From Comamonas sp. (GTDB lineage: Bacteria; Pseudomonadota; Gammaproteobacteria; Burkholderiales; Burkholderiaceae_C), in contig NZ_SPEY01000023.1 of the NCBI RefSeq assembly GCF_009360615.1, positions 62,001 through 126,000 of the forward strand: a DNA stretch of 64,000 nt. Direction: 5' to 3'. This document shows positions 647 to 18,625 of this stretch, piece after piece (position 1 is the stretch's first letter; the number at the start of each line of letters is the position of its first letter). A program made the position numbers and the translations under genes. The notes below the pieces were generated by a model that saw nothing but the letters and a program-made list of their open reading frames with translations, was not told the origin of the DNA and did not search any database.

Positions 647-1108
647 TCAGGTGGCGGGTTGCAGCACGCTGCGATCCCCGAGCTCCAGCAGCATCGTCAT
701 GCTGCGCTTGTGAATGCGCCAGCCTGCCGGCATCCGCACCCATTCGTCTTCGTAAAAGCCGATGGCGTCGTAGCGCAGATGGCTGCGTGCCCCCAGTCCT
801 TGGTGCACGGCACGCACCTGAATCCTGCTGCGCGGTCGATCCGGGTCGTGGGCATCGACCTCCAGATTGCCCAGCAGATGCTGCGTGGGGCCGCAGCCGT
901 CAAGGTGTGAGCTGATCATGCGGCGCACCTTGGCGATCCCCTCGCAGCGGTAACTGCCACCATAGACCGTGGTGCAGTCGGGCGCGAACACCTGCTGCAG
1001 CATGTCCCAGTCGCGGGTGTCGCAGGCCGTGGCATAGCGGATCAGGGGCTGGGTCAGGGCATGCTCCAGGAGAAGCTGCTCCAGCGTGCTTGCTGCGGTC
1101 TGCATCAC
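647..1108 (-). CDS. NTF2-like (SnoaL/ketosteroid-isomerase fold) protein
   Basis: The 153-residue protein has the size and pattern of the NTF2-like cone fold. An N-terminal helix (LIRYATACDTRDWDMLQQVF) leads into alternating strands and a late segment AGWRIHKRSM typical of SnoaL-type proteins. The fold covers isomerases, hydratases and lyases acting on hydrophobic ring compounds, as well as non-catalytic proteins. Its ATG overlaps the stop of the upstream RND gene by four bases (ATGA), so it is probably translationally coupled as the last gene of a three-gene operon. The context suggests a steroid or steroid-intermediate ligand, but no catalytic assignment can be made. Confidence 0.7.
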   Translation of the reverse strand: MMQTAASTLEQLLLEHALTQPLIRYATACDTRDWDMLQQVFAPDCTTVYGGSYRCEGIAKVRRMISSHLDGCGPTQHLLGNLEVDAHDPDRPRSRIQVRAVHQGLGARSHLRYDAIGFYEDEWVRMPAGWRIHKRSMTMLLELGDRSVLQPAT

Positions 1109-3585
1109 ACCTTGCCGTTCACGGAGGACTGGGGTTCTGGTTTGAGCATGCCACCTGCGTGGCCGATGCCGCCTGCGCTGCCTGCGGGGGCATGTCGGGG
1201 CTGCCGTTGCAGTCGCCTGACACGTGCCCTGGCTTCGGCCACGCCCACATTCAACCAGTAGGCCATGGCGGGCAGCAGAAAGATGGCGCCCAGCATGTTC
1301 ACCAGGAACATGAAGGCCAGCAGGATGCCCATGTCGGCCTGGAACTTCAGCGCCGAGAAAGCCCAGGTGCCCACGCCGATGGACATGGTCAGCGCGGTGA
1401 AGATGGCGGCGTTGCCCCGCTGACGCATGGCTTCATAGAAAGCCTCGCGCAGCGTGATGTCGCGCTCGCGCAGCTCGTGCTGCATGCTCTCGAACAGATA
1501 GATGCCGTAGTCCACACCCACGCCCACCCCCAGGGCCACCACGGGCAGCGTGGGGACCTTGAGGCCAATGCCCAGCATGGCCATCAAGGCGTTGCAGAGT
1601 ATGGAAACGATAGCCAGGGGCACGACGATGCACAGCACGGCGCGCCAGCTGCGGAAGGTCAGCCAGCACAGCAGCGTGATGGCGCCAAAGATGGAGCCCA
1701 GCATCTGCACTTCGGCATGTTCCACGGCTTCGTTGGTGGCGGCCGCGACGCCGGCATTGCCCCCTGCCAGCAGGAACTTGACGTTGGGCGTCTTGTCCGC
1801 CGCGATGAAGCGGCGTACCTCGTCCACCACGTGGGTCAGCGTGGCGCCTTCGTGGTCCTTGAGGAAGACCTGCAGATTGATGACCTTGCAGCCCTCGGTG
1901 TTCAGGCCCAGATCGGGAGACAGTGCCTTGGCCCCCGAGCGCAACGCGGCTTCGGTGCGCTGCAGCGCCGCCCAGCGGGGATTGCCCTCGTTGTTGCTGG
2001 ATGCCGCAATCTTGGCCAGACCGGAGACGGTGGAGACCGATTGCACGCCGTCGACCCGTCGCATGCGCGATTCGAAGCGCTCCACGGCATTCATCACCTG
2101 CCAGTTCAGGCAGCCTTCGTCGAGATTGGAGGTTTCCACGAAGACGGAGAGCACATCCATGCCGATCGAGTAGCTGCCGATGATGTTGTCGTTGTCCCGG
2201 TTGTAGCGCGATTCGGCACGCAGCTCGGGCGCACCCGTGCCTACGTCACCGGTCAGCAGCCTGCGCGACTCGTAGGTGCCGGCCGCCAGCAGCACCAGCG
2301 ACACCGCAAGCGTCAGTGCGGCGGGGCGGGACTCGGCCAGTGCCGACAGCTTCCACCAGAGCGGGTTGCGGCCGTTGGCGGTCGGGGTGGGAGCCTGCAA
2401 GGCTTTCTTCTCCAGCCGCAGATTGGCCAGCACCGCAGGCAGGAAGACCTTGTTGGTGATGATCATCAGCAGCACGCCCATGCAGGCAGTCACACCCAGC
2501 TCGTGAACGATGGGGATGTCGATCAGCATGATGACCATGAAGCCCAGGGCATTGGTCAGCAGCGCCAGGGCACCGGGAATGGCCAGCTTGCGAATCGCGT
2601 TCTCGGCGGCCAGGCTGGAGCTGAGGCCGGCGCGCACGTCATGTTTCCAGGCGCCTGTCATCTGCACGGCGTGGGATACGCCGATGGAGAAGATCAGAAA
2701 GGGCACGAGGATGGACATGGGATCGATGCCGTAGCCGATCAGCGGCAGGATGCCCAGCAGCCAGATCACAGGCAGCAATGCCACGGCCAGGCCGACCACC
2801 GTGATGTTGGTGGACCGGGTATAGAGGCGCAGCATGATGGCCGTGATGACAAAGGCGATGGCGAAGAAGGTCATGACCGTGGTCAGCCCTTCCATCACGT
2901 CGCCCAGCACCTTGGAGAACCCGATGATGTGAATCGAGATGTCCTTGCTTTCGAACTTGCTGCGGATCTCCTCCAGGCGCTGCGCAACCTGGTGATAGTC
3001 GAGCTTCTCGCCGCTCTTGGGGTCGACCTCGAGCAGGTCGGCCCGCACCATGGCGGACTTCAGATCGTTGCTGACCAGGGAGCCGATCTGGCCGGACTTG
3101 GCCACGTTGGAGCGCACCTGTGCCAGTCCCTGCTCGTTGGCCTCGAAGCGGGACGGGATCAGTACCTCGCCCACATAGCCGTCTTCGGTGATCTCGATGT
3201 ATTTCACGTTCGGTGTGAACAGCGAGTACACCTGGCCGCGATTGACGCCGGGGGTGAAGAAGACTTCGTCCGTCACGCCGCGCAGCGTATCCAGGAATTC
3301 CTTGTTGTAGATGTCGCCTTGCCGGCCCTTCCACTCCACGCTCACCAGAATGCGGTTGGCACCGGAGAAGGTGGAGGCATGCTTGAGAAATGCCGACATG
3401 TACTCATGGCGCATGGGAATCAGCTTGTTGAAGCCGGGGTCGAGGTGCGTGCGCATGGCGGAGACAGCCAGCAGCGCCGTGGCGACCAGCGTCAGTACGA
3501 CGATGGACTTGCTCCACGAGATCAGCCAGCGTGCCGTGGATGCAATGAACCGGTCCAGCCGGCTGGTAGGTTCGCTCAGAGTCAT
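1105..3585 (-). CDS. RND superfamily (MMPL-type) predicted exporter
   Basis: The 826-residue protein has the architecture of the MMPL/HpnN-like RND family. One N-terminal membrane helix (about 25-45) and a large periplasmic loop are followed by a block of helices (about 235-390), then a second loop and a second block (about 630-785). The repeated glycine-rich helix motifs (for example ALGVGVGVDYGIYL) match the proton-relay helices of this family. It overlaps the genes on both sides by four bases (ATGA), indicating a coupled operon with the YCF48-like and NTF2-like genes. RND and YCF48-type pairs recur beside aromatic and steroid catabolic genes in pseudomonads and comamonads. Transport of a steroid or sterol-like acid across the envelope is an inference. 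The direction of transport cannot be told. Confidence 0.85.
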   Translation of the reverse strand: MTLSEPTSRLDRFIASTARWLISWSKSIVVLTLVATALLAVSAMRTHLDPGFNKLIPMRHEYMSAFLKHASTFSGANRILVSVEWKGRQGDIYNKEFLDTLRGVTDEVFFTPGVNRGQVYSLFTPNVKYIEITEDGYVGEVLIPSRFEANEQGLAQVRSNVAKSGQIGSLVSNDLKSAMVRADLLEVDPKSGEKLDYHQVAQRLEEIRSKFESKDISIHIIGFSKVLGDVMEGLTTVMTFFAIAFVITAIMLRLYTRSTNITVVGLAVALLPVIWLLGILPLIGYGIDPMSILVPFLIFSIGVSHAVQMTGAWKHDVRAGLSSSLAAENAIRKLAIPGALALLTNALGFMVIMLIDIPIVHELGVTACMGVLLMIITNKVFLPAVLANLRLEKKALQAPTPTANGRNPLWWKLSALAESRPAALTLAVSLVLLAAGTYESRRLLTGDVGTGAPELRAESRYNRDNDNIIGSYSIGMDVLSVFVETSNLDEGCLNWQVMNAVERFESRMRRVDGVQSVSTVSGLAKIAASSNNEGNPRWAALQRTEAALRSGAKALSPDLGLNTEGCKVINLQVFLKDHEGATLTHVVDEVRRFIAADKTPNVKFLLAGGNAGVAAATNEAVEHAEVQMLGSIFGAITLLCWLTFRSWRAVLCIVVPLAIVSILCNALMAMLGIGLKVPTLPVVALGVGVGVDYGIYLFESMQHELRERDITLREAFYEAMRQRGNAAIFTALTMSIGVGTWAFSALKFQADMGILLAFMFLVNMLGAIFLLPAMAYWLNVGVAEARARVRRLQRQPRHAPAGSAGGIGHAGGMLKPEPQSSVNGKV

Positions 3586-4589
3586 GGGGTCGCTCCTGGG
3601 TCAGCCTGAGTGGCTGCCTTGGCTTGTGGTGAAGGGGGGAAGGGCTGCAGACCCGCATCGCTGGACATCCAGCCGCTGTCGGGGCCGGTCAGAACGATGT
3701 CGGTCAGGGTGGCGCGGCCTTTGGCGCGTTGCAGACTGAAGCTCTTGCCGCCGTCCTTGCTCAGGCCGAGCATGCTGCCTTGTCCCACCAGGATGATGGT
3801 TCCATCCTTTTCCTGCGCATGGCCGAAAAAGGAGACCGGGGCCTGAATTGCCGACTTGAGCCAGGGCATGCCCGGTGCGGCCTGTACGAAGGCGTTGCCG
3901 CGCATGCCGTAGATCAGCCATCCGCCTTCGCGCGTTGCCATGGCGTTGTAGAAGGAGCCCTTGTAGAACTCTGGCTCGATCTGCCAGTTGGCGCCGGAGT
4001 CTTCGGATCGAATGACCAGACCGCGCTCGCCCACGATCAGCCAGTGCTTGCCGTCCTCGGTGCTGGCAATGCGGTTCATGTGCTTGTCCTCGACCTCTGC
4101 GGGCAGGGCCAGAGGCTCCCAGGTCTGGCCGTTGTCCCTGGAGGTGATGGCACGGCCGAAGGCGCCGACGCTGATCCAGTCGCCCGAGGGAAGGCGTGCG
4201 ATCGACATCAGAGGCTCACCGTTTTCCTTGGAGAAGGCGACCTCCTCCCAGGTGCTGCCGCTGTCTTTGCTGCGCAGAATCCAGCCCTCATGACCCACGG
4301 CAAAGCCGGTCTTTCTGTCGGGCGCAAAAGCCATGCTGATGAGGAGTGCCTGGCGCTGCTCCTTGATCCGTGCCTGCAGCCAGTGTGCGCCCTTGTCGTC
4401 CGAGTACAGGATCTCGCCCAGTGCGCCAGCGGCCAGCAGACGTTCACCCACCTGTGTGACGGTGTTGAAATGGCTGCGCTCGACGCCAATGGTGGTGGGC
4501 GCCAGCGGGGGCGGTGTGCGGGGCGCAAAGGCGAGCGCTGAGGCAAAGGCCACCAATGCTGCTGCGCCTATACCGACGGCTGTTTTCAC
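3582..4589 (-). CDS. YCF48/BNR-repeat periplasmic protein
   Basis: The 335-residue protein begins with a hydrophobic signal segment (about 5-22). It continues with recurring SKDSGSTWE, SRDNGQTWE, SEDSGANWQ and SKDGGKSFS units, the Asp-box/BNR signature of a beta-propeller related to YCF48/HCF136. It probably resides in the periplasm. The gene is first in a minus-strand operon, with a good AAGGAG ribosome site ahead of the ATG, and its stop overlaps the RND gene by four bases. The partnership suggests an accessory or scaffold for the RND protein or its cargo. No enzymatic sialidase activity is implied by the Asp boxes. Confidence 0.8.
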   Translation of the reverse strand: MKTAVGIGAAALVAFASALAFAPRTPPPLAPTTIGVERSHFNTVTQVGERLLAAGALGEILYSDDKGAHWLQARIKEQRQALLISMAFAPDRKTGFAVGHEGWILRSKDSGSTWEEVAFSKENGEPLMSIARLPSGDWISVGAFGRAITSRDNGQTWEPLALPAEVEDKHMNRIASTEDGKHWLIVGERGLVIRSEDSGANWQIEPEFYKGSFYNAMATREGGWLIYGMRGNAFVQAAPGMPWLKSAIQAPVSFFGHAQEKDGTIILVGQGSMLGLSKDGGKSFSLQRAKGRATLTDIVLTGPDSGWMSSDAGLQPFPPSPQAKAATQADPGATP

Positions 4590-4799
4590 GTTGTCTCCTT
4601 GTTGATTCGTACACGCTGTGCATGTATTGCAAACACGGGTGCAGGTTCTTGATTTGGAGCTTCAGCAACATCGTCCGAATGGACGTTTGCCCGGAGAATT
4701 AGGGGTATGTACGGGGCCGGCTTTTTAGTCTCTACAGACGATGGATTCGGTCTGCTTCATTTACACAATGAATGCACACTTTCTTGGTAAGGGAGACAT
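4590..4799. promoter_or_regulatory. Divergent promoter region between the YCF48 operon and the thiolase operon
   Basis: This 210-nt region separates the minus-strand YCF48-RND-NTF2 operon from the plus-strand thiolase gene and must hold promoters for both. It is visibly richer in A and T than its flanks. It contains a near-palindromic element at 4669-4688 and a second partial half-site (AGACGATG) around 4735-4742. No convincing -35/-10 pair was assigned. Confidence 0.6.
4669..4688. promoter_or_regulatory. Candidate operator, site 1 (CATCGTCC-GAAT-GGACGTTT)
   Basis: The core CGTCC-GAAT-GGACG is a perfect 5-bp inverted repeat. The left half CATCGTCC is the exact reverse complement of the half-site GGACGATG found in the promoter regions at 7222-7229 and 12590-12597. 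It sits 89 nt from the YCF48 start and about 110 nt from the thiolase start. The regulator is unknown. In C. testosteroni a LuxR-type protein (TesR) is known to activate steroid genes, but linking it to this site is inference. Confidence 0.45.
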
Positions 4800-6014
4800 A
4801 TGGGTTTGCAAGGAAAAGCGGCGCTGGTTGGCGTCGCGCAGTACAGGCCGCAGAAGTACGCAACGGCACCGCGCATGTTCCATCTGGAGCAGGTGGCCGA
4901 CCTGGCGCTGCAGGCTCTGGAGGACGCCGGCATGGAGCTGTCCGAGGTGGACGGCCTCATCACCAGCGCCCCGCACTTTCATGAAGCCAGCTGCTTTGTG
5001 CCGGCCATGGCCGGCGAGTACCTGGGCGTGCGCCTGAACTTTGCCGAAGTGGTCGATCTGGGAGGGGCCAGCTCCGTGGCCATGGTCTGGCGCGCGGCCG
5101 CTGCGATCGAGCTGGGGCTGTGCAATACCGTGGTCTGTGTGCTGCCGGCGCGCATGGCGCCGATCTCCGAGCATGATGACCACATCAAGGAAGTCATGAA
5201 GGCCAGCCGCTTCGGTGGCCACAGCACCCGTTTTGGCGCACCGGAGGCCGAGATGGATCTGCCCTATGGTCATATGGCGCAGAACACCGGCTATGCCATG
5301 ATTGCCCAGCGCTACGGCGCGATCCATGGCTATGATGCGGCCGCTTTGGCGCGCATCTGCGTGGACCAGCGCTTCAATGCGTGCCACAACCCCGATGCCA
5401 TGTTCTATGGTCAGCCCATCACCGTGGACGACGTGCTGAACTCGCGCATGGTGGCGGACCCTCTGCACGTGCTGGAAATCGTCCTGCCGGCTGCGGGCGG
5501 CGGTGCCATGATCGTCACCCGCGCCGACCGCGCCAGGACCACCAGACACCGTCCCGTCAGCATCGTCGGCTGCGGCGAACATGTGAGCAGCAAGTCCCCC
5601 ACCTATATGGCCGACATGCTCCAGACCCCCATCGGACCGGCCTCAGCCAAGGCGTTCGAAATGGCGGGCATGCGCCCTGGCGACATGCATATGGCGCAAA
5701 TCTATGACTGCTACACGATTACCGTGATGCTGACGCTGGAAGACGCGGGATTTTGTGCAAAGGGCAAGGGCATGGACTTTCTGCGCGACAACGACTTCAC
5801 CTTCAAGGGCAACTTCCCCATGAACACCCATGGAGGCCAGTTGAGCTTCGGCCAGTCCGGCACGGCGGGCGGCATGTCCCAGGTGATCGAAGCAGTGCAC
5901 CAGATCCAGGGGCGAGCAGGCGACAGGCAACTGCCTCGCCACGATCTGGCCTATGTGTCCGGCACCGGTGGCGTGATGAGCGAGCAGGGCGCGTTGATCC
6001 TGCGGGGAGCATAA
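4800..6014 (+). CDS. Thiolase-fold (SCP2/Ltp2-like) protein without thiolase cysteines
   Basis: The 404-residue protein follows the thiolase-superfamily plan of two repeated halves. Where thiolases carry the nucleophilic Cys, it reads DLGGASSVAM (about 87-96). The C-terminal Cys motif is also replaced, by VSGTGGVMS (about 386-394). The His motif NTHGG (about 342-346) and an IYDCYTIT segment (about 301-308) remain. This pattern recalls Ltp2-type steroid side-chain retro-aldol lyases, which use tyrosines and need a DUF35 partner. Such a partner is encoded 4 nt downstream. A C-C lyase acting on a steroid acyl-CoA is therefore more likely than a classic thiolase. This is inferred from family features. 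Confidence 0.75.
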   Translation: MGLQGKAALVGVAQYRPQKYATAPRMFHLEQVADLALQALEDAGMELSEVDGLITSAPHFHEASCFVPAMAGEYLGVRLNFAEVVDLGGASSVAMVWRAAAAIELGLCNTVVCVLPARMAPISEHDDHIKEVMKASRFGGHSTRFGAPEAEMDLPYGHMAQNTGYAMIAQRYGAIHGYDAAALARICVDQRFNACHNPDAMFYGQPITVDDVLNSRMVADPLHVLEIVLPAAGGGAMIVTRADRARTTRHRPVSIVGCGEHVSSKSPTYMADMLQTPIGPASAKAFEMAGMRPGDMHMAQIYDCYTITVMLTLEDAGFCAKGKGMDFLRDNDFTFKGNFPMNTHGGQLSFGQSGTAGGMSQVIEAVHQIQGRAGDRQLPRHDLAYVSGTGGVMSEQGALILRGA

Positions 6015-6018
6015 GAAC

Positions 6019-6957
6019 ATGGCTTGGAACAAACCTCTGCCTCATCCCACGGAAATTTCTGCGCCGTACTGGGAAGGTCTCAAGGCCCACGAAGTGCGCA
6101 TTCAGCAATGCGATCGTGGACATTCGCTGTTTTTTCCACGGACCCATTGCCCCACTTGCGGATCGCGTTCCCTGAAGTGGCGCAAAGTGTCTGGCGAGGG
6201 CACGCTCTACAGCTTCACCATCGCGCGCATTCCCACCATGCCCGAATTCACGGACGAGATGCCCCAGGCCCTGGCCGTGGTCGAACTCCGTGAAGGCGTG
6301 CGCATCAACACCACCATGGTCGGTGTGGATCCCGAGGCGCTGAAAGTGGGCATGGAGGTGCGCCCCGTGTTTGACGAGCGCCCCGGCGAGGTCACCTTGC
6401 TGCGCTTTACCGCCCATGCGGGCAGCCAGCCGGCCGTCATCAAGGTCGACGCCGAGGCCCAGGTTGCCGTGGTGGAGCAGGCTGCCGCAGCCAAGCGCAA
6501 GGTTTCCGTCAAGGACATCGAGGCCATGAAGTCACTGGTGTCCGAGGAGTACAGCGCCTGGTCCAACGAGTTCATCGTGAGCCAGGAAGTCATCAACGAG
6601 TTTGCCAGGCTCTCGGGCGATGACTACTGGATTCACACCGATCCCGTGCAGGCGCGTGAGAAAAGCCCGTTCGGCACCACCATTGCCCATGGCGCGCTGG
6701 TGCAGGTGCTGGCAAGCCAGCTCCGGATTCCGCTGGACTATGAAGTGGTGGATTTCAACAACATGGTCAACTATGGATCGGATCGCCTGCGTTTTCCCAC
6801 CCCCGTGCCCTCCGGCTGCAAGATCCGTGCGCGTGCCCGCATCAAGGCGGTGGAGCAGGTCAGGAGCGGAGTGCAGGCCACGATGGAGCTCCATATCCAC
6901 GTGGTCGGCCAGGATCGTCCCGCTGTCATCAACGACCTGGTGATTCTCTACATGTGA
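6019..6957 (+). CDS. DUF35 OB-fold and MaoC-like hydratase fusion protein
   Basis: The 312-residue protein joins two modules. The N-terminal part (about 15-135) is a DUF35 protein. Its rubredoxin-like zinc ribbon is degenerate: Cys31, Cys44 and Cys47 are present, but the usual second Cys is replaced by Gly34. An OB-fold follows. The C-terminal part (about 165-312) is a MaoC-like hotdog domain with the hydratase pair Asp201/His206 in SGDDYWIHTD. Actinobacterial ChsH2 also joins these modules but, as I recall, in the opposite order. The gene lies 4 nt after the thiolase-like gene and probably forms a lyase-hydratase complex with it. A strong terminator follows. Confidence 0.8.
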   Translation: MAWNKPLPHPTEISAPYWEGLKAHEVRIQQCDRGHSLFFPRTHCPTCGSRSLKWRKVSGEGTLYSFTIARIPTMPEFTDEMPQALAVVELREGVRINTTMVGVDPEALKVGMEVRPVFDERPGEVTLLRFTAHAGSQPAVIKVDAEAQVAVVEQAAAAKRKVSVKDIEAMKSLVSEEYSAWSNEFIVSQEVINEFARLSGDDYWIHTDPVQAREKSPFGTTIAHGALVQVLASQLRIPLDYEVVDFNNMVNYGSDRLRFPTPVPSGCKIRARARIKAVEQVRSGVQATMELHIHVVGQDRPAVINDLVILYM

Positions 6958-7004
6958 TCGCCGATCCCCGCCCGGTGAGGGTGGGGCACTGTCTTCAAGG
7001 GTTG

Positions 7005-7033
7005 GGGCTTTGCGCAGGCAAAGCCCTTTTTTT
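7005..7033 (+). terminator. Rho-independent terminator of the thiolase/DUF35-MaoC operon
   Basis: The stem GGGCTTTGC/GCAAAGCCC with a GCAG loop is followed by seven T residues. It lies 47 nt after the DUF35-MaoC stop codon. Confidence 0.9.
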
Positions 7034-7294
7034 CGGCCATCCGCAGTGGGTTCCCACGCTGCAGTGTGAGTGAATCTGTCCAGCGGGCCGTGCCTGCCTG
7101 AAAAGCGCGGATGGCCCTCGAATGGCTGGAATTCTGCGTGCCAGGATCCGAAGCCATGCGGCGGAGGCACCGAAGTGTCGCTCTGGGGTTGCTACCTAAG
7201 TAAATACCTGCTCATCAAAATGGACGATGTGGCGTTCTCCGTGCCGGCCATACTGCGAGCCAGAAAGGCCATAGAGCCTGCAAAGGAGACAAGC
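7034..7294 (+). promoter_or_regulatory. Leader/promoter region of the small secreted peptide, with candidate operator site 3
   Basis: This 261-nt non-coding stretch lies between the terminator and the small peptide gene. At 7210-7229 it carries GCTCATCA-AAAT-GGACGATG, whose right half GGACGATG equals that of the tesA1/tesA2 site and is the complement of the left half of site 1. The element is 65-85 nt upstream of the start codon. No other structure was recognised. Confidence 0.4.
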
Positions 7295-7498
7295 ATGAAA
7301 ACCTCTTTTCGCTGGATGAATGCACTTCGCGCAGCGTCACTGGCGGCTCTGGCGCTGGCGCTATACCTGCCCGCGATGAATCTGCCTCAGGCGGCCGCCG
7401 TGGCAGCACAGGCAGACACTGCCCCCAGGCTGCCGGCCGGCATCGTGCTGGCCAGTGCCAAAACCTCCTGGAACACCGTGTTCGCCTCGGGCTATTGA
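7295..7498 (+). CDS. Small secreted peptide, unknown function
   Basis: A 67-residue product begins with a classic signal sequence: Lys/Arg near the start, then a hydrophobic run SLAALALALYLPAM (about 15-28), with possible cleavage after an Ala-rich stretch. This leaves a mature peptide of roughly 30 residues without cysteines. The ATG is preceded by AAAGGAG with good spacing, which supports real translation. It stands alone between two terminators and has its own candidate operator, so it may be co-regulated with the steroid genes. I do not recognise a family. Confidence 0.6.
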   Translation: MKTSFRWMNALRAASLAALALALYLPAMNLPQAAAVAAQADTAPRLPAGIVLASAKTSWNTVFASGY

Positions 7499-7644
7499 GC
7501 TCTGGTCCGGCCAGGCTGGCCGATCTGGCGCGGGCACCGCACGGGCGCGCCGTCGGCGCGGCAATGGATGGCTCATGGCGGACCGGGCTGGCGTGCCGGA
7601 CTTCTGCGGCTGTCGCGATGAGACCCCTGATGGGCCGATGGCGT

Positions 7645-7685
7645 AAAAAAAGGGTCCACGACCGCCCCAGGCAGCCGCCGAACCC
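7645..7685 (-). terminator. Possible terminator of the tesA1DEFG operon
   Basis: On the minus strand GGGTTC pairs with GGACCC (one G-T wobble) across a 22-nt GC-rich loop and is followed by seven T residues. It lies 30 nt past the tesG stop. The short stem makes this tentative. Confidence 0.4.
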
Positions 7686-7713
7686 ACGACACAGCGACAA
7701 AGAGAATCTGAAG

Positions 7714-8775
7714 TCAGACGTGTTCGGCTGCCGCAGCCGCCTGATGCGCGGGCTTCTGGCGCTCGCGCACCATGGTCAGTGCCGTGTCCTCGATCATGTC
7801 TTCCTGGCCGCCCACCATGCCGCGGCGACCCAGCTCCAGCAGCAGCTCGCGTGCGGGAATGCCGTACTTGGCCTCGGCACGCTTGGCGAACAGCAGGAAG
7901 CTGCCGTAGACGCCCGCATAGCCGAGGGTCAGCGCGTCGCGGTCGATACGGATGGGGAAATCCATCAATGGCACGACCAGGTCTTCGGCCACATCCTGGA
8001 TGCTGAATACGTCCACGCCCGTTTCGATGCCCATGCGTGCGCACACGGCCACCAGCACTTCCATCGGCGTGTTGCCCGCCCCCGCTCCCAGACCGGCCGC
8101 TGCCGCATCGATGCGGTTGGCACCGACCTCCACTGCAGCCAGCGAGTTGGCGATGCCCATGGCCAGGTTGTGGTGGCCATGGAAACCCAGTTCGGTCTCG
8201 GGCCTGAGGGCCTGGCGCACGGCGGACAGGCGCTCTTTCACGTCGTCCGGCAGCATGTAGCCGGCAGAGTCGGTGATGTAGATGCAGTTGGCACCATAGT
8301 CTTCCATGAGTTTGGCCTGCTTGACCAGGCCCGAGGCCGAGTTCATGTGCGCCATCATGAGAAAGCCCACGGTGTCCATCCCCATCTTGCGGGCCATGGC
8401 GATGTGTTGCTCGGAGACGTCGGCCTCGGTGCAATGCGTGGCCACGCGGAGGGTGGAGACGCCCAGTTCGTGGGCCATCTTCAGGTGATCGACAGTACCG
8501 ATGCCGGGCAGCAGCAGCGCCGAGACCCTGGCCTGCTTCATCAGTGGAATGACGGTGGACAGGTATTCCTCGTCCGTGTGCGCAGGAAAGCCGTAGTTGA
8601 CCGAGCTGCCGCCCAGGCCGTCGCCATGGGTCACTTCAATCAGGGGCACGCCGGCGGCGTCCAGGCCGCAGGCCACGGACTTCATCTGCTCCAGCGTCAT
8701 CTGGTGGCGCTTGGGGTGCATGCCGTCACGCAGCGTCATGTCGTGGACGGTGATCTTCTTGCCTTTGAGGGACAT
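7714..8775 (-). CDS. tesG: 4-hydroxy-2-oxovalerate/hexanoate aldolase (TesG)
   Basis: The 353-residue protein is a class II pyruvate aldolase of the DRE-TIM family. It has the N-terminal [13 protein letters not shown] motif (Arg16, Asp17, His20) and the metal-binding GFHGHHN (His199, His201). In steroid degradation it splits 4-hydroxy-2-oxohexanoate into pyruvate and propanal. It works as a channelling complex with the acylating aldehyde dehydrogenase encoded 15 nt upstream. An AGGAG site precedes the ATG. As last gene of the minus-strand tesA1-D-E-F-G operon it matches the TA441 order. Closely related enzymes serve other meta-cleavage pathways, so the steroid role rests on context. Confidence 0.88.
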
Positions 8776-8790
8776 GTTCTTCTCCTAAGT

Positions 8791-9714
8791 TCAGGCGGCA
8801 ACGGCAGCTTCGGCCAGCTCGAAGCGGCCGGCAAGGATTTCTTCGGCAAACATCTCGGCCGTGCGGGCCGCGGCGGCGGTCATGATGTCCAGGTTGCCCG
8901 CGTACCTGGGCAGGTAGTCGCCCAGGCCTTCGACCTCCATATAGATGGAGACGCGGTTGCCGTCGATCACGGGACCGTTGACCAGCTTGTAGCCGGGCAC
9001 GTATTTCTGGACTTCCTGGATCATGTCCCGAACCGAGGCTTCGATCTCGGCCGGCTTGGGGGCGTCCACCGTGAGGCAGTGGATGGTGTCGCGCATGATC
9101 AGCGGCGGCTCGGCGGGGTTGATGACGATGATGGCCTTGCCCTTTTGCGCGCCGCCGATCTGCTCCACGGCACCCGAGGTGGTACGGGTGAATTCGTCGA
9201 TGTTCTTGCGTGTGCCGGGGCCGACAGAGCGGCTTGACACCGTGGCCACGATCTCGCCATAGCGCACGGCCTGCACGCGCGAAACCGCTGCCACCATGGG
9301 AATGGTGGCCTGGCCGCCGCAGGTGACCATGTTCACATTCATGGCTTTTTCTGCGACCTTCTCGGCCAGGTTCACGCTGGGCACGCAGTAGGGGCCGATC
9401 GCTGCGGGCGTGAGGTCGATCATCAGCACGCCCAGCGCGTTGAGTTTGCGGCTGTTTTCGGCGTGGACATAGGCGCTGGTGGCGTCGAAGGCGATCTGTA
9501 TGCCGTCTTGCTTGACGAAGGGCAGCAGGCCGTCCACCCCTTCGGCCGTGGTCTTGATGCCCATCTCGCGGGCACGCTTGAGACCGTCGGACTCAGGGTC
9601 GATGCCGACCATCCACACTGGCTCCAGCAGGGGCGATCGCTGCAGTTTCATGAGCAGGTCGGTACCGATATTGCCGGGGCCGATCAGCGCACACTTGATT
9701 TTCTTTTGCGTCAT
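8791..9714 (-). CDS. tesF: Acylating acetaldehyde/propanal dehydrogenase (TesF)
   Basis: The 307-residue protein has the short acylating aldehyde dehydrogenase layout. An NAD-binding Rossmann motif GPGNIG lies at about 12-17, and the catalytic Cys132 sits in [10 protein letters not shown]. It oxidises the aldehyde released by the aldolase to the acyl-CoA, here most likely propanal to propionyl-CoA, and pairs physically with TesG in related systems. The start is supported by a GGAG sequence, and the gene is packed 6 nt behind tesE and 15 nt ahead of tesG. Confidence 0.9.
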
Positions 9715-9720
9715 GGGGTC

Positions 9721-10515
9721 TTACTCCGTGAATTGAATGGAACAGCTGCCCATGCCGGCAATGACCATCTCGAAGTGGTCGCCGGCAGCGGCAGGCACCA
9801 GCGGGGCCAGCGATCCCGAGAGAATGAGCTCGCCGGCCTTGAAGGGAATGCCGAATGCGCCCAGGGTGTTGGCCAGCCAGGCCACGGCCTCGGCCGGGTG
9901 GCCCTGTACGGCGCTGCCGAGACCAGCTCCCGCAGGCTGGCCGTTCCTGTGCATCTGCATGGCCGCCTCGGCCAGATCCAGCGAAGCGGGATCGGTGTGC
10001 AGCCTGCCGATCACGAAGACACCGCAGGATGCGTTGTCGGCCACGGTGTCCTGGATCTTGATCTTCCAGTCCTGGATGCGTGAATCGACGATCTCGAAGC
10101 AGGGAGCCACCCACGCGGTGGCGTCCAGCACGTCTTCCTTGCTCACCCCCGGGCCTTGCAGATCCTTCTTGAGCATGAAGGCGATTTCGCCTTCGGCACG
10201 AGGCTGGATCAGGCCGGCCGCCTTGATCGAGACGGTTGCGCCGTCCTCGTATTCCATGCGGTCGGTCAGAAAGCCGAAGTCGGGCTGGTGCACGTTCAGC
10301 ATGTCCTGCACGGGCTTGGAGGTCACGCCGATCTTCTTGCCGATCACGCGCTCGCCCGCCGCTTCGCGCAGGCGCAGCATGTGCAGGGAGATGTGATAGG
10401 CGTCTTCGACCGTCATCGCGGGGTGGCTGTCGGTCAGCGGTGCGAGCGTCCTGGCGCTGCGCAGTGCCTCATACAGGCGCCGGCCTTGCGCTTCGATGAA
10501 ATGCTTGTCATGCAT
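9721..10515 (-). CDS. tesE: 2-hydroxyhexa-2,4-dienoate hydratase (TesE)
   Basis: The 264-residue protein belongs to the 2-keto-4-pentenoate hydratase/fumarylacetoacetate hydrolase superfamily. A typical early segment (GKKIGVTSKPVQDMLN) and the metal-site region around RAEGEIAF and EIVDSRI are visible. In the steroid pathway it adds water to 2-hydroxyhexa-2,4-dienoate, released by TesD, to give 4-hydroxy-2-oxohexanoate for TesG. The gene sits 6 nt after tesD and 6 nt before tesF, in one operon. No strong ribosome site is seen ahead of its ATG, so translation may depend on coupling to tesD. Confidence 0.88.
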   Translation of the reverse strand: MHDKHFIEAQGRRLYEALRSARTLAPLTDSHPAMTVEDAYHISLHMLRLREAAGERVIGKKIGVTSKPVQDMLNVHQPDFGFLTDRMEYEDGATVSIKAAGLIQPRAEGEIAFMLKKDLQGPGVSKEDVLDATAWVAPCFEIVDSRIQDWKIKIQDTVADNASCGVFVIGRLHTDPASLDLAEAAMQMHRNGQPAGAGLGSAVQGHPAEAVAWLANTLGAFGIPFKAGELILSGSLAPLVPAAAGDHFEMVIAGMGSCSIQFTE

Positions 10516-10521
10516 GAGTCG

Positions 10522-11361
10522 TCAGCCGTTCTTCATGAAATCGATGCAGGTGCGGTTGAACATCTCGCGATGCTCGACCTGTACCCAGTGGCCGCACTGG
10601 TTGACCAGCACGACGCGGCAGTGCGGGATGCCCTTGGCCAGCTTGTCGGCACCGCCCACGGGGTTGAAGGCATCCTGCATGCCCCAGAAGGCCAGCACGT
10701 TGCACCTGAGATCGGGCAGCCGCCCGGTCATATCGGGGATGTAGAGCCGCTGGCGCGAGGCCTCGGTCTGGGTCAGCGCGATCGGGGCGCGTTCGTTGAT
10801 GATCTCGTCGGTCAGCAGCGACTGGTCCACCACCTGCATGCTCATGACGGCGCGCATGGCTTCAGGGCCGGTCTTGCCGGACTTGTAGATATTGAACATA
10901 TTGGCAATGCCGGGCATGGCCATATAGGTTTCGAACTCTTCCACGCCGCCGGGTGCCATGAGGATCAGGCTCCTGACGTCCTCGGGGTACTTGAGTGCAT
11001 AGCCCAGCGCCACGGCGCCGCCCAGCGAGTTGCCCAGCAGGGTGATGTTCCTCAGGTCCAGTTGGTCCACCAGGCCTTTGATGCCGGCGATGAAAAAATC
11101 CATGTCGTACTGCCTGGGCTCTTCGGTCTTGGACGAGAGGCCGTATCCGAGCAGATCCGGAACGATGGCGCGAAAGCCGGCCGCCGCAAATTCGGGATAG
11201 TTGCCCTTGAAGTTGCTGTAGCCGCTGGCACCAGCGCCGGCGCCGTGCAGGAAGATGACGGGATCACCCGAGCCTTGCTCGTGGTAGTGCACGCGCTGGG
11301 CATGGCCGGCCACGTTGCCGATGTCCACATACTTGCCTTCTGGGATGGAAAAAGTGCTCAT
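10522..11361 (-). CDS. tesD: Meta-cleavage product hydrolase (TesD)
   Basis: The 279-residue alpha/beta hydrolase has an HGAGAGAS oxyanion loop (about 39-46), the nucleophile elbow GNSLGG with Ser112, an Asp in FWGMQD (about 230) and a His in QCGHW (about 258). This is the HsaD/BphD-type C-C hydrolase signature. In C. testosteroni it cleaves the seco-steroid meta-cleavage product into a C6 dienoate and the hexanorandrostan-5-oic acid that retains rings C and D. The gene lies between tesA1 (77 nt upstream) and tesE. The family also serves biphenyl and phenylpropionate pathways, so the steroid assignment depends on neighbours. Confidence 0.88.
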   Translation of the reverse strand: MSTFSIPEGKYVDIGNVAGHAQRVHYHEQGSGDPVIFLHGAGAGASGYSNFKGNYPEFAAAGFRAIVPDLLGYGLSSKTEEPRQYDMDFFIAGIKGLVDQLDLRNITLLGNSLGGAVALGYALKYPEDVRSLILMAPGGVEEFETYMAMPGIANMFNIYKSGKTGPEAMRAVMSMQVVDQSLLTDEIINERAPIALTQTEASRQRLYIPDMTGRLPDLRCNVLAFWGMQDAFNPVGGADKLAKGIPHCRVVLVNQCGHWVQVEHREMFNRTCIDFMKNG

Positions 11362-11438
11362 CTATGTTCTGGATGCTTGGAGTGGATAGGCGAAGGCTGT
11401 CTCCTGCCTTCGGGTGAGAAATCGGGGAGCGCAGCGCC

Positions 11439-12416
11439 TCAAGCCTTGGCTCGCCAGAGCTTGGGCAGGCCAGGGTCGGTGGCGGCAATGGCTTTCTTGA
11501 GCAGGTTGCGCAAGGTGGCGGCTTCCATCTCGCCCAGGCTTTCGACGAGGCCGGTCTCGACGGCCTTGGCTGCGGCCAGTACGTGCAGGATGGCTTCGTT
11601 GCCCTGTGGTGTGAGCTGCAGGGACTGCTGCCGCTCGCGGCTCTCCTCCACCCAGCCCTTGGCAATCAGTGACTGCAGAGCGACTGCGCCGATGTCGGTG
11701 CCGGTGTAGGCCATGTGAGAGGCAATCTCGGCAGGGGACTGGGGCTGCTGGATGCTCAGCAGCGAGAGCACGTAGAAATCGGCGTCGGTCATGCCGTAGG
11801 CCGCCATGGGTCTGCGCAGTCCGCTCAGGAACTGGAAGTGCGCGCGCCCCATCAGGTAGCCGATCAGGTTTTCGGAATAGGCCGTATCACAGTCGGCAGA
11901 GGGGTCGCTGGCCACGGGGCCAGCCTTGCGCGAGGCCATGGCGTAGCCGCCGGTCACATAGAGCAGAGGAGGGTGCGGGCTGGCGTCGTAGTCGGTCACC
12001 TCGCCCACGAAGATGATGTGGTCGCCACCGTCGTACTGAAATGCGGTCTTGCACCTGAAGCGTGCGCTGCAGTCCTGCAGCAGCGGGGCATGGTCGGACT
12101 CGGAGTCCAGGGGCAGGCCCGAGAACTTGTCCTCGCCGACACGGGCAAAGCGGTTGGACAGCGCTTCTTGCTCGTTGGAGAGGATGTGCACGTTCCAGGT
12201 GCTGGCGCTCTGGAACACGGGCAGGCTGCGCGCGTTCTTGGCCAGGCTCCACAGCACCATGGGCGGGTCCAGCGAAACGGAGTTGAAGCTGTTGGCGGTG
12301 ATTCCTACAGGCTCGCCATTCCCGGCACGGGTGGTGACGATGGTGACCCCGGTGCCGAACATGCCCAGGGCGCGGCGAAAGTCTCTCGGGTCGAAGGTTG
12401 CTGCAGTACTTTGCAT
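11439..12416 (-). CDS. tesA1: Flavin reductase of the seco-steroid hydroxylase, with C-terminal MarR-like domain (TesA1)
   Basis: The 325-residue protein has two parts. An N-terminal flavin reductase-like domain (about 8-165) is followed by a winged-helix MarR-like domain (about 200-320) containing SPAEIASHM and a wing-like region near RERQQSLQLTPQG. The same architecture is known in the C1 reductase of Acinetobacter 4-hydroxyphenylacetate hydroxylase, where the extra domain senses the phenol and relieves autoinhibition. TesA1 should supply reduced flavin to TesA2 for hydroxylation of 3-HSA. HsaB-type actinobacterial partners lack this domain. It is first in the minus operon, divergent from tesA2. 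Confidence 0.87.
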   Translation of the reverse strand: MQSTAATFDPRDFRRALGMFGTGVTIVTTRAGNGEPVGITANSFNSVSLDPPMVLWSLAKNARSLPVFQSASTWNVHILSNEQEALSNRFARVGEDKFSGLPLDSESDHAPLLQDCSARFRCKTAFQYDGGDHIIFVGEVTDYDASPHPPLLYVTGGYAMASRKAGPVASDPSADCDTAYSENLIGYLMGRAHFQFLSGLRRPMAAYGMTDADFYVLSLLSIQQPQSPAEIASHMAYTGTDIGAVALQSLIAKGWVEESRERQQSLQLTPQGNEAILHVLAAAKAVETGLVESLGEMEAATLRNLLKKAIAATDPGLPKLWRAKA

Positions 12417-12694
12417 GAGGTGAATGTCTCCTTGCTGCGAGAGTGCTGCGAACGGCGTTTCGACGAATCCTTCACTTGGACTAGCAGGGGAAAACCGGGC
12501 TCGGTACTTGTCCCAGGCCTGGTGATTCCGGGGCGCCGGATCCGGCTCTGAGAAGCGCCGGAAACGCCTGCTGCGTCGTTAGTCTGATCGGACGATGAAC
12601 GGAAAATAGCGCGGTGCGAGCATTTCTGTCATAGGCGAGAAGCCTTGCCCACCACACCACAAGCCGTCCGGTGGAGCGGCAACCGGAGACCTGA
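12417..12694. promoter_or_regulatory. Divergent promoter region tesA1/tesA2
   Basis: This 278-nt region between the two halves of the hydroxylase must drive tesA1DEFG leftward and tesA2HI-ORF17-scdA rightward. It contains the candidate operator at 12578-12597. A further hairpin-like GC-rich stretch lies around 12525-12565. AAGGAG (tesA1) and CCGGAG (tesA2) ribosome sites are present. No clear -35/-10 pair was identified, which fits activator-dependent promoters. Confidence 0.6.
12578..12597. promoter_or_regulatory. Candidate operator, site 2 (GTTAGTCT-GATC-GGACGATG)
   Basis: The right half GGACGATG is identical to that at 7222-7229 and complementary to the left half of the element at 4669-4688. 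The inner 14 bases AGTCTGATCGGACG match the site 1 core at 10 of 14 positions. It lies 98-117 nt ahead of tesA2 and about 160-180 nt ahead of tesA1. Confidence 0.45.
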
Positions 12695-13891
12695 ATGAAC
12701 ACCATGACAGACAACTACCTCACCCCCGATGCGCTGGCCGTGATCGAGCGTGCCAAGGCTCTGGCGCCCAGGCTGGCGGCCCGCGCCCAGCAGGCGGATC
12801 GCGAAGGCAAGATCAGCGACGAGACCGTTCAGGAGATGGCCGAGGCGGGTCTGTTCCGCGTGCTGCAACCCAGGCGCTGGGGTGGCTATGAAATGGACCC
12901 CCGCGTTTTCTACAGCGTGCAGATGGAGCTGGCCAAGGGCTGCATGTCCACGGCCTGGATCTATGGCGTGGTCGGCGTTCACCCCTGGCAGCTGGCGCTG
13001 TTTCCCGATCAGGCCCAGCAGGACGTATGGGGCCATGACACCGGCGTGCGGATCGCATCGACCTATATGCCCACCGGCAAGGCCGAGCCCGTGGAGGGCG
13101 GCTTCAGGTTCAACGGCCGCTGGAGCTTCTCCACCGGCTCCAAGCATTGCGACTGGCTGTTTCTCGGCGGTCTGCTGCCCAAGCGTGATGGAACTCCGGG
13201 TCTGGAGCACGTGACCTTCTTGCTGCCCAAGGCAGACTATCGCATCGAGGACAACTGGGATGTGCTCGGCCTGCGTGGCACGGGCAGTCATGACATCGTG
13301 GTGGAAGACGCGTTTGTACCCGCACATCGCATCCAGTACACCAACGACCACAGCGATGCGGGTTGCCCCGGCCGCGCACAGAACACCAACTGGCTGTTCC
13401 GCATCCCTTTCACCCATGTGTTCCAGCGCGCGGTGTCCACCGCCTGTCTGGGTGCGCTGGAAAGCGCCATCGCTTCGTTCACCGAGCGCGCGACGTCGCA
13501 TGTGGGCAAGCATGGCAACAAGATGGCCGAGGACGTGAACGCCCAGACGGCCGTGACCGAAGCCACGATTGCGCTGGATCAGCTCAAGGTGGTGCTGTTC
13601 CGCAACTATGCCCGCATCGTGGATGCCGCCAAGACCGGCATTCAGCTGACGCTGGAAGAGCGCCTGCTGCAACGGGCCCAGGCATCGTACGTGCCCAAGC
13701 TGACGGGCTTTCACGCCAACGAGCTGATGCGCGCCTGCGCCGCCAGCGGAACTTTCAAGAGCAACCCCATCGAGCGCATCTTCCGCGACATCCATCAGGG
13801 ACGCACGCATATCGCCAACAATACGGACGCCTATGTCCGCGCTTACGGTTCGCACGTGCTGGGCATTGCCAACCAGGAACCTTTCGTCTGA
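12695..13891 (+). CDS. tesA2: Flavin-dependent seco-steroid monooxygenase, oxygenase component (TesA2)
   Basis: The 398-residue protein has the acyl-CoA dehydrogenase fold used by reduced-flavin monooxygenases of the HsaA/HpaB-C2 type. A helical N-terminal domain with GLFRVLQPRRWGGYE (about 53-67) is followed by a beta domain (WSFSTGSKHCDW, GTGSHDIVVEDAFVP) and a C-terminal four-helix domain. The substrate is expected to be 3-HSA, hydroxylated at C4 to the catechol that TesB then cleaves. Acyl-CoA dehydrogenase activity is unlikely, because the partner flavin reductase is encoded divergently next door. The start follows a CCGGAG ribosome site. Position next to tesH agrees with the TA441 cluster. 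Confidence 0.87.
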   Translation: MNTMTDNYLTPDALAVIERAKALAPRLAARAQQADREGKISDETVQEMAEAGLFRVLQPRRWGGYEMDPRVFYSVQMELAKGCMSTAWIYGVVGVHPWQLALFPDQAQQDVWGHDTGVRIASTYMPTGKAEPVEGGFRFNGRWSFSTGSKHCDWLFLGGLLPKRDGTPGLEHVTFLLPKADYRIEDNWDVLGLRGTGSHDIVVEDAFVPAHRIQYTNDHSDAGCPGRAQNTNWLFRIPFTHVFQRAVSTACLGALESAIASFTERATSHVGKHGNKMAEDVNAQTAVTEATIALDQLKVVLFRNYARIVDAAKTGIQLTLEERLLQRAQASYVPKLTGFHANELMRACAASGTFKSNPIERIFRDIHQGRTHIANNTDAYVRAYGSHVLGIANQEPFV

Positions 13892-13996
13892 CGCCGTTCA
13901 TGCAGCAGGCTGCCGCGACCGCGCATCGCGGTGGCTGCGGCCAGTGTGCATCAGCGCCAGTCCATGCATAAAACAGATAATTGACGGAGACAAGGT

Positions 13997-15727
13997 ATGG
14001 CAGAGCAGGAATACGACCTGATCGTCGTGGGTTCGGGGGCGGGAGCCCTGTTGGGTGCCATTCGGGCCCAGGAGCAGGGTCTCAGGACGCTGTTGGTGGA
14101 GAAGACGGAACTGTTTGGCGGTACTTCGGCCCTGTCGGGCGGCGGCATCTGGATTCCTGTCAATTACGACCAGAAGAATGTCGGCATCAAGGATGACCTG
14201 GAGACTGCATTCGGCTATTTGAAGCGCTGTGTGCGCGGCATGGCGACGGATGACCGCGTGCTGGCCTATGTGGAAACCGCCAGCAAGATGGCCGAGTACC
14301 TGCGCAAGATCGGGATTCCCTACCGTGCCATGGCCAAGTATGCGGATTACTACCCCCACATCGAAGGCTCCAGACCCGGCGGCCGGACCATGGATCCGGT
14401 GGATTTCAATGCCGCCAAGCTGGGCCTGGCGGCATTGGAAACCATGCGCCCCGGCCCTCCCGGCAATCAGCTGTTCGGCCGCATGAGCATCAGTGCTTTC
14501 GAGGCACATTCCATGCTGTCGCGCGAACTGAAATCGCGCTTCACCATCCTCGGCATCATGCTCAGGTATTTCCTGGACTATCCCTGGCGCAGCAAGACCA
14601 GGCGCGATCGCCGAATGACAGGCGGGCAGGCGCTGGTGGCCGGCCTGCTGGCTGCGGCCAACAAGGCCGGTGTCGAGATGTGGCGCAATGCACCGCTCAA
14701 GGAGCTGGTGCGGGCGCCAGGGGGCCGTGTGACGGCGGTCATCGTTGAAAAGGACGGTCAGCGCCTGCAGATCAAAGCCGGACGTGGCGTCCTGCTGGGT
14801 GCCGGTGGCTTTGAGCGCAACCAGGAAATGCGCGACCAGTACCTGAACAAGCCCACCAAGGCCGAGTGGACGGCGACCCCGGCAGGCTGCAATACCGGAG
14901 ATGCGCACCGGGCCGGACAGGCAGTGGGCGCGCAGTTGGCGCTGATGGACTGGTCCTGGGGCGTGCCCACCATGGATGTTCCCAAGGAACCTGCCTTCCG
15001 TGGCATCTTCGTGGAACGCTCGCTGCCGGGATGCATGGTGGTCAACAACCGGGGGCAGCGCTTCCTCAACGAGTCCGGGCCGTATCCCGAATTCCAGCAG
15101 GCCATGCTGGCCGAGCATGCCAAGGGCAATGGCGGCGTGCCCGCATGGATCGTGTTCGACGCCAGCTTCCGCGCGCAAAACCCCATGGGCCCGCTGATGC
15201 CCGGCTCCGCCGTACCGGACAGCAAGCTGCGCAAGAGCTGGTTGAACAACGTCTACTGGAAGGGCGAGACGCTGGAGGATCTGGCGCGCCAGATCGGCGT
15301 GGATGCGGCAGGCCTGAAGGAGAGTGCGCGCCGCATGAGCGAATACGCCAGGGTCGGCAAGGATCCGGACTTCGGCCGTGGCAGCAATGTGTTTGACCGC
15401 TACTACGGCGACCCGCGCCTGGTCAACCCCAATCTCGGCCCCATCGAGAAGGGGCCGTTCTATGCCATGCGCCTCTGGCCGGGCGAGATCGGCACCAAGG
15501 GCGGGCTGCTGACCGACAGGGATGGCCGTGTGCTCGATACGCAAGGCGAGATCATCGAAGGTCTTTACTGCGTGGGCAACAACTCCGCTTCCGTCATGGG
15601 GCCGGCCTACGCCGGCGCGGGCTCCACCCTGGGACCGGCCATGACTTTTGCCTTCCGCGCCGTTGCTCACATGCTGGGCACGCCGCTGCCGCTCGAGAAC
15701 CCGCATCTGCTGGGCAGGACCGTTTAG
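13997..15727 (+). CDS. tesH: 3-ketosteroid delta1-dehydrogenase (TesH)
   Basis: The 576-residue flavoprotein has the dinucleotide motif GSGAGALLGA (about 12-21), then GGTSALSGGGIWIP (about 41-54), a hallmark of 3-ketosteroid delta1-dehydrogenases. Near the C-terminus YAGAGSTLGPAMTF places Tyr538 and Gly542 four residues apart, as the catalytic Tyr/Gly pair of KstD enzymes. It introduces the C1-C2 double bond into ring A and passes electrons through FAD. GGAG precedes the ATG by 7 nt. The gene follows tesA2 after 105 nt and is 15 nt ahead of tesI, so it is likely co-transcribed. Confidence 0.88.
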   Translation: MAEQEYDLIVVGSGAGALLGAIRAQEQGLRTLLVEKTELFGGTSALSGGGIWIPVNYDQKNVGIKDDLETAFGYLKRCVRGMATDDRVLAYVETASKMAEYLRKIGIPYRAMAKYADYYPHIEGSRPGGRTMDPVDFNAAKLGLAALETMRPGPPGNQLFGRMSISAFEAHSMLSRELKSRFTILGIMLRYFLDYPWRSKTRRDRRMTGGQALVAGLLAAANKAGVEMWRNAPLKELVRAPGGRVTAVIVEKDGQRLQIKAGRGVLLGAGGFERNQEMRDQYLNKPTKAEWTATPAGCNTGDAHRAGQAVGAQLALMDWSWGVPTMDVPKEPAFRGIFVERSLPGCMVVNNRGQRFLNESGPYPEFQQAMLAEHAKGNGGVPAWIVFDASFRAQNPMGPLMPGSAVPDSKLRKSWLNNVYWKGETLEDLARQIGVDAAGLKESARRMSEYARVGKDPDFGRGSNVFDRYYGDPRLVNPNLGPIEKGPFYAMRLWPGEIGTKGGLLTDRDGRVLDTQGEIIEGLYCVGNNSASVMGPAYAGAGSTLGPAMTFAFRAVAHMLGTPLPLENPHLLGRTV

Positions 15728-15742
15728 GCAGGAGGCATGGAG

Positions 15743-17479: not shown

Positions 17480-17554
17480 CCCCTTGGATGGGGCTCTTGC
17501 ATCGGGACTCCGCCGCAAGATGGCACAGAGAGAGTGAGTAAGGGGTAAGAAGAA

Positions 17555-18622: not shown

Positions 18623-18625
18623 TTT

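Follow-up and report, generated by a model that had tools for sequence, protein, structure and literature searches.

Results

Shared sites in the steroid gene region

The DNA analyzed here is a stretch of 64,000 nucleotides (the window), positions 62001-126000 of contig C32 in the genome (G000) of a Comamonas near C. testosteroni, whose TesA2 is 96-97% identical to those of strains ATCC 11996 and JL40. Positions 1105-20248 of the window belong to the steroid mega-cluster that excerpts of PMC13101464 describe for strain TA441, at its tesG end. The cluster extends through C32:1-62000 and comes to about 104 kb in total. At the start of C32 lie the end of a thiolase gene (81-752) and then tesR (861-2036), and another contig, C56, carries tesB and ends within the genes preceding that thiolase. 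Because of this arrangement, C56 and C32 appear to be neighbouring contigs, and, given this join, the tesB-tesR cluster ends with tesR, which follows the thiolase. The subject of this report is a 20-bp sequence shared by promoter regions of the cluster, which we call the tes box. It is very probably the operator of the LuxR-type, steroid-inducible activator TesR/TeiR, which presumably binds to it.

A sequence-only reading of the window had pointed to three 20-mers ahead of gene starts (4669-4688, 7210-7229 and 12578-12597), and our analysis agreed with it in both coordinates and letters; each of them contains an exact copy of GGACGATG or of its complement. That reading had also noticed a partial half-site near 4735. 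The half-site is indeed located there, and it belongs to a complete site, TTTAGTCT-CTAC-AGACGATG (4724-4743). A fifth site had been missed; it is a degenerate one before tesA1 (12466-12485, minus strand), whose score is 4.7 bits yet which is conserved. The site at 4669 does stand ahead of a gene start; its half-site polarity and the associated -10 element point away from the thiolase and toward the YCF48/RND genes, which lie on the minus strand. The pair of boxes between the thiolase and YCF48/RND genes recurs, 46-233 bases apart, at the loci L034, L036-L041 and L046. The features are listed in Table 1.

Table 1. The tes boxes, their predicted -10 elements and related features. Positions are those of the window unless a contig is named; the five boxes of the window and the last two rows form our working list of 17 boxes.
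Feature	Position	Strand	Remarks
tes box, divergent YCF48-like/RND genes	4669-4688	-	20.6 bits; GACGATG half toward minus strand; same 22-mer in L034, L036, L039
Predicted -10 GAACCT, YCF48/RND promoter	4643-4648	-	exact register, dyad at -42.5; predicted +1 about 4636
tes box, thiolase/dehydratase operon	4724-4743	+	24.1 bits, the top oriented score on C32; 37.2 with -10
Predicted -10 CACAAT, thiolase operon	4764-4769	+	exact register; predicted +1 about 4776
tes box, 67-aa peptide gene	7210-7229	+	17.2 bits; peptide-gene box also in L031, L032, L034, L035
Predicted -10 CATACT, peptide gene	7249-7254	+	shifted by one base from the usual register; dyad at -41.5
67-aa peptide gene, downstream of 7210 box	7295-7498	+	conserved in six Comamonas loci
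Degenerate tes box, tesA1-D-E-F-G operon	12466-12485	-	4.7 bits; CTAGTCC half in 14/15 loci; -10 in register in those 14 and the window
Predicted -10 CACTCT, tesA1	12440-12445	-	predicted +1 about 12433
tes box, tesA2-tesH-tesI-kshB-fadD3 operon	12578-12597	+	27.7 bits; 20/20 betaproteobacterial loci
Predicted -10 GAGCAT, tesA2 operon	12618-12623	+	exact register; predicted +1 about 12630
Listed boxes, C56	48175, 51722, 65888		51722 before tesB; 65888 before operon apparently ending in tesR
Listed boxes, C32 outside the window	9496, 19453, 21855, 25360, 27686, 29288, 39259, 45318, 58244		25360 kshA-like; 27686 symmetric, between divergent promoters; 39259 hsdA (PDB 1FJH)

Definition of the box

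The number of half-sites in the window was at the level of chance. That is, GGACGATG occurred in 4 copies against 2.9 in shuffled sequences, 34 of 100 shuffles reached 4, and the genome rate of the half-site (326 copies in 5.26 Mb) gave an expectation of 3.97. When as many as 3 mismatches were allowed, the strict palindrome CATCGTCC-N4-GGACGATG matched the window twice, and 9 of 100 shuffles equalled this. These counts, and the fact that the half-site is common genome-wide, would agree with a resemblance caused by chance or codon usage. We give that explanation almost no credence, as it is refuted by the conservation, the intergenic clustering, the -10 register and the genome-wide co-occurrence described below. 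Neither the half-site by itself nor the strict palindrome, with which the sequence-only reading had defined its motif, is strong enough to decide either way, and both were dropped as tests. The motif rises above chance by a matrix built on orthologues, by conservation and by the -10 register. The signal is in the paired halves, the placement and the distance to the -10 element.

The box upstream of tesA2 was present in all 20 of the loci L031-L050, which we take to be betaproteobacterial from the names of the organisms. Its variants were CGTTAGTCTGATCGGACGATGA in 7 of 8 Comamonas loci, CGTTAGTCCGTTCAGACGATGA in 4 of 5 Zoogloea loci, and TCATCGTCTGAACAGACGATGA in Pandoraea. The predicted operator consensus is TTAGTCY or CATCGTCY-N4-RGACGATG, a 20-bp dyad. 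The ideal site had been proposed as fully palindromic; since its far half frequently reads TTAGTC, the ideal box is an imperfect palindrome. A search for plasmids with the gap between tesA1 and tesA2 gave no match.

A symmetric matrix was seeded by nine orthologous variants of the tesA2 box and seven sites of our own genome, with the -10 element not used. At 14 bits or more it found 8 matches in C32:1-84000 and none in C32:84000-180000, and Markov sequence gave 0.39 per 100 kb. Six of the 8 matches were intergenic and one was inside a gene (C32:44674). The remaining one, the 7210 site, was scored as coding because the gene caller had over-extended the open reading frame of the 67-aa peptide (to 107 aa); the caller also shortened the genes at window positions 3582-4589 and 6019-6957. 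Ten of the 17 listed boxes score at least 14 bits, six score 11.8-13.6 bits, and the tesA1 site is the last. The weak boxes were listed on the basis of a -10 element and a position before an operon, and the tesA1 box on its conservation. The matches of at least 10 bits that were not listed lie in coding sequence of C32 and C56, apart from C32:157572 (12.1 bits), which is intergenic and outside the cluster. The coding matches C32:44674, C57:3408 and C108:6258 are probably due to chance. A box of 18.3 bits lies within an enoyl-CoA hydratase gene at L085:4674-4693, and may be either a chance match or an internal site.

When the box was combined with the -10 element, 10 of the 14 matches in our genome fell in the cluster of about 104 kb, and the rest were C12:16326, C107:10251, C20:1677 and C34:4745. 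The C12 match (L127:4323-6764), on a contig apart from the main cluster, precedes a DUF1329 gene followed by the 3beta/17beta-hydroxysteroid dehydrogenase (HSD) gene (PDB 1HXH, E 5.5e-146). The C107 match precedes the gene of a TesR paralogue. We assign no role to the C20 and C34 matches, and no gene was called over C20:1677. A second boxed DUF1329 gene lies within the cluster at C32:58390. A box pattern with a wrong spacing, which serves only as an accidental control, had a single match on C32, outside the steroid cluster. The regulon is larger than had been proposed: it comprises about 17 cluster boxes, the unlinked 3beta/17beta-HSD locus and a paralogue of TesR.

Distance and direction relative to the -10 element

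The common layout is a box, about 18 bases, and then NANNAT. We examined 80 kb from each of three other genera (G004, G168 and G178), picked for having TesR. The matrix gave 33 matches of at least 14 bits, and 31 of these were intergenic, although 93-94% of the sequence was called coding; 40 column-permuted dyads gave a mean of 0.35 and a maximum of 5 matches. Among 45 oriented sites, a few of which are tesA2 sites used to build the matrix, ANNNT was found at the exact distance in 27, and one base off in 4 and 5 more; the mean at other distances was 2.4%. In our own genome the register was kept in 9 of 13 oriented sites. If +1 is placed six bases past the -10 element, the centre of the dyad would be at -42.5.

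A -10 element accompanied 34 of the 55 half-sites with GACG adjoining it, compared with 1 of the 22 with GACT, and therefore the box has a direction. GACG is present in both halves of 16 boxes, and the -10 element stood on both sides in 3 of these, on one side in 10, and on neither in 3. We also considered GACGAT as a -35 hexamer, and rejected it: given the gap that is seen, no more than the last three bases of the box would reach the -35 slot, and they are unlike TTGACA.

The fixed placement also bears on the other regulators of the cluster. LysR-type genes (C32:2588, 30399 and 42059) and an XRE/ScfR-type gene (C56:46560) all travel with the cluster, and one of these proteins, for example a LysR type such as HsdR, might bind the box. 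We consider this very improbable: the 20-bp dyad at a constant -42.5 suits a class II activator of the LuxR type, and TesR is the factor that the boxed operons require according to excerpts of PMC6895838 and PMC6678751. As a separate observation, the gene of an XRE/ScfR-type short-chain acyl-CoA regulator at the edge of the cluster (L117:16560-18035) has no box, and the published table described below lists no change for its likely counterpart, GM003938.

TesR and its co-occurrence with the box

TesR is one of 19 GerE matches in our genome. It is 98% identical to a protein of ATCC 11996 (the L031 genome), and its C-terminus has a LuxR-type (GerE) helix-turn-helix (HTH) domain, PF00196, above the cut-off. 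The structure model (mean predicted local distance difference test score 71, predicted template modelling (TM) score 0.48) has two regions resembling sensors, along with a helical HTH at the C-terminus, and its top PDB matches by Foldseek were phytochrome-type sensor modules with low TM-scores, VqmA being at rank 39.

Our survey of the family covered 299 genomes. Ten of them, in 7 genera, have a full-length TesR with 60% identity or more; G116 had one of 41%, and other full-length matches were at most 36%. The symmetric pattern GTCY-N4-RGACGATG-N21-ANNNT occurred 5-11 times in each of the 10 TesR genomes and 7 times in G116. In the other 288 genomes, 50 had at least one match, and never more than 2 except in G104. 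A reversed control pattern gave, by our reading, 4 matches in total. The probability that all 10 TesR genomes are among the 12 with at least 5 matches is 5e-17; when the two Comamonas are left out it is 3e-14, relatedness being ignored in both cases. A looser family pattern had been noisy, with up to 18 matches in G069, which lacks TesR, and was replaced. TesA2 at E 1e-90 was found in 11 of the 299 genomes, the same as those with TesR except G094 and G104.

We also examined 17 genomes that lie behind TesA2 loci, some in the family and some outside it. TesR-like matches at E 1e-10 occurred in 16 of these, with 28-98% identity for the best per genome. The RRNTARAHLRSIFSK of TesR was identical in the 12 best orthologues (49-98% identity), and altered in Pseudomonas and beyond. 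It is kept in G004, G168 and G178, and in the 41% TesR of G116 it is kept up to one base past it. Box matches per 100 kb were 15.1 in betaproteobacterial loci, 2.3 in gamma/alpha loci, and 0.26 in actinobacterial and other loci; the last group gave 1 match, a coding one, in 390 kb. Intergenic box-like sites lie at L051:1316, L051:4286, L053:6779 and L066:16267, in Pseudomonas, another gammaproteobacterium and an alphaproteobacterium. Excerpts of PMC6895838 cite a report of tesR-like genes in C. testosteroni only, and those of PMC8399759 note TeiR-like genes in P. stutzeri Chol1. As judged by protein identity, TesR orthologues occur more widely than in C. testosteroni.

Our genome also has two paralogues of TesR, with 61% (L119:6399-7661; C107:10503) and 60% (L122; C39:25864-27015) identity and nearly the same recognition helix. 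The box might be bound mainly by one of these, or by all three proteins, with TesR acting upstream as a sensor. The similarity of the helices, the box before one of the paralogue genes, and the relation of TeiR to a kinase cascade in excerpts of PMC6678751 speak for this possibility. In the family scan, paralogues of at least 60% besides TesR occurred only in G000 and G128, and the other TesR genomes were equally rich in boxes. We therefore regard it as unlikely, though less so than binding by the LysR or XRE/ScfR proteins. The 61% paralogue, whose box is at C107:10247, adjoins genes of cyclic di-GMP turnover.

Agreement with published genetics and expression

In excerpts of PMC6895838 and PMC6678751, TesR/TeiR is needed to induce tesB-tesR, tesA1-tesG, tesA2-ORF18, the 3,17beta-HSD gene (listed as TeiR-dependent in PMC6678751) and the 3alpha-HSD gene. 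Each of these targets carries a box in our genome.

Testosterone responses of the same cluster in C. testosteroni strain JLU460ET are given in Table 4 of PMC10637631, and we matched its 93 rows to genes of our genome from their order and descriptions. By then most of the boxes were already on our list, and the tesA1 site was formally scored afterwards. By this mapping, the 66 rows in boxed operons had a minimum log2 change of 4.37 and a median of 7.08, and the 16 unboxed rows had a maximum of 1.40, unlisted values being set to 0. All 20 predicted operon heads rose by a log2 of at least 4.37. GM003857, taken as the 67-aa peptide gene, rose by 6.46, and GM003916, a LuxR-family gene taken as tesR, by 4.88, in agreement with the box ahead of its operon. 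At L083:9560-10200, where the table has fabG, no frame was called, and the stretch looks broken in this assembly.

Other features of the window

The 67-aa peptide has a hydrophobic start and a conserved end among six Comamonas relatives. In ATCC 11996 (L031:2826-4844) its gene is followed by a TonB receptor gene, which the window lacks. TesA1 (11439-12416), a flavin reductase, has a C-terminal MarR-like stretch with a weak Pfam match below the cut-off.

Discussion

The site, its conservation, its fixed distance to the -10 element, its near-restriction to genomes with TesR or the steroid pathway, and its agreement with the published induction are results of computation. The evidence favours the proposal of the sequence-only reading that a single regulator, perhaps TesR, controls the thiolase, RND, peptide and tes operons. 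From these results we infer that TesR is the protein bound to the box, as well as the start sites, the class II contact and the control by steroid at the box. In this mechanism, a TesR dimer would bind the dyad CATCGTCY or TTAGTCY-N4-RGACGATG centred at about -42.5, occupy the place of the -35 element, and help RNA polymerase to use a weak -10 element (NANNAT), in the manner of class II activation. The half nearest the -10 element, nearly always GACGATG, and the far half, CATCGTC or TTAGTC, give the box its direction, and symmetric boxes between divergent genes could serve both sides.

Several points weigh against this interpretation. Seven of the 17 boxes score below 14 bits, the tesA1 one only 4.7, and the exact register is absent in 18 of the 45 oriented sites. 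The mapping of the expression rows was not blind to their values, and 11 of the 93 rows were set aside, several of them induced without a clear box (log2 5.34-6.33 for GM003907-3912, 4.40 for 3882, 3.34 for 3883, 4.23 for 3904, 1.94 for 3905, and 2.57 for 3856, a gene absent here). In G104 (76% complete), which lacks TesR, there are 6 matches, and TesA2 is partial. G094 (contigs C21, C27, C42 and C144) has TesR of 61% and 6 matches, with no TesA2 at the cut-off; either it has a TesR regulon without the TesA2 step, or its assembly is incomplete. Within the family, TesR, the box and the steroid pathway tend to be found in the same genomes, so that their co-occurrence is not by itself enough to identify TesR as the regulator, and the two paralogues could share the site. 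Finally, excerpts of PMC6678751 state that TesR/TeiR was reported to be a membrane protein that works by way of a kinase activity.

The lux-box promoters of class II, on which LuxR of Vibrio fischeri acts, have a 20-bp dyad centred at about -42.5 that replaces the -35 element. The tes box is likewise a 20-bp dyad, presumably for an HTH of the LuxR type, in the place of the -35 element at about -42.5 from the predicted start. It differs from the lux box in its half-site and in its directional far half, and the sensor of TesR is predicted to be GAF/PAS-like, whereas that of LuxR is an acyl-homoserine-lactone domain. VqmA (PDB 6ide) has the same plan as TesR, a sensor (PAS) plus a LuxR-type HTH, although its TM-score with the TesR model is 0.26 and the identity is 15%. 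The KstR and KstR2 operators of actinobacteria also give regulon-wide control of steroid catabolism, but KstR and KstR2 are repressors of the TetR type, unlike the activator TesR, and the tes box is essentially absent from loci of actinobacteria and other distant groups. A further counterpart is TesR/TeiR of C. testosteroni itself, with the same neighbourhood, a nearly identical protein and boxed targets. A description of a TesR operator was not found in the literature searched, which did not reach the 2004 TeiR paper. Within that literature, the tes box is a new and well-supported operator for a known kind of activator.

We also propose, more tentatively and with slightly more doubt than belief, that TesR is a direct-acting GAF/PAS-LuxR-type activator and not chiefly a membrane kinase, and that it heads a wider proteobacterial family. 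Its operator would be directional, with GACGATG toward the -10 element and TTAGTC at the back, and the symmetric boxes would be two-way switches that recruit polymerase at -42.5 for divergent steroid promoters.

In proteobacterial steroid degradation the activator is known, and TesR/TeiR appears in the literature as a LuxR-type transcription factor and also as a membrane kinase. With a box of defined position and direction, and with its target promoters listed, the view of direct binding becomes testable. The box points to steroid genes that are uncharacterised, such as the YCF48/RND genes and the 67-aa peptide gene. The analysis also adds further genera to the range of TesR and offers candidate promoters for building a steroid biosensor.

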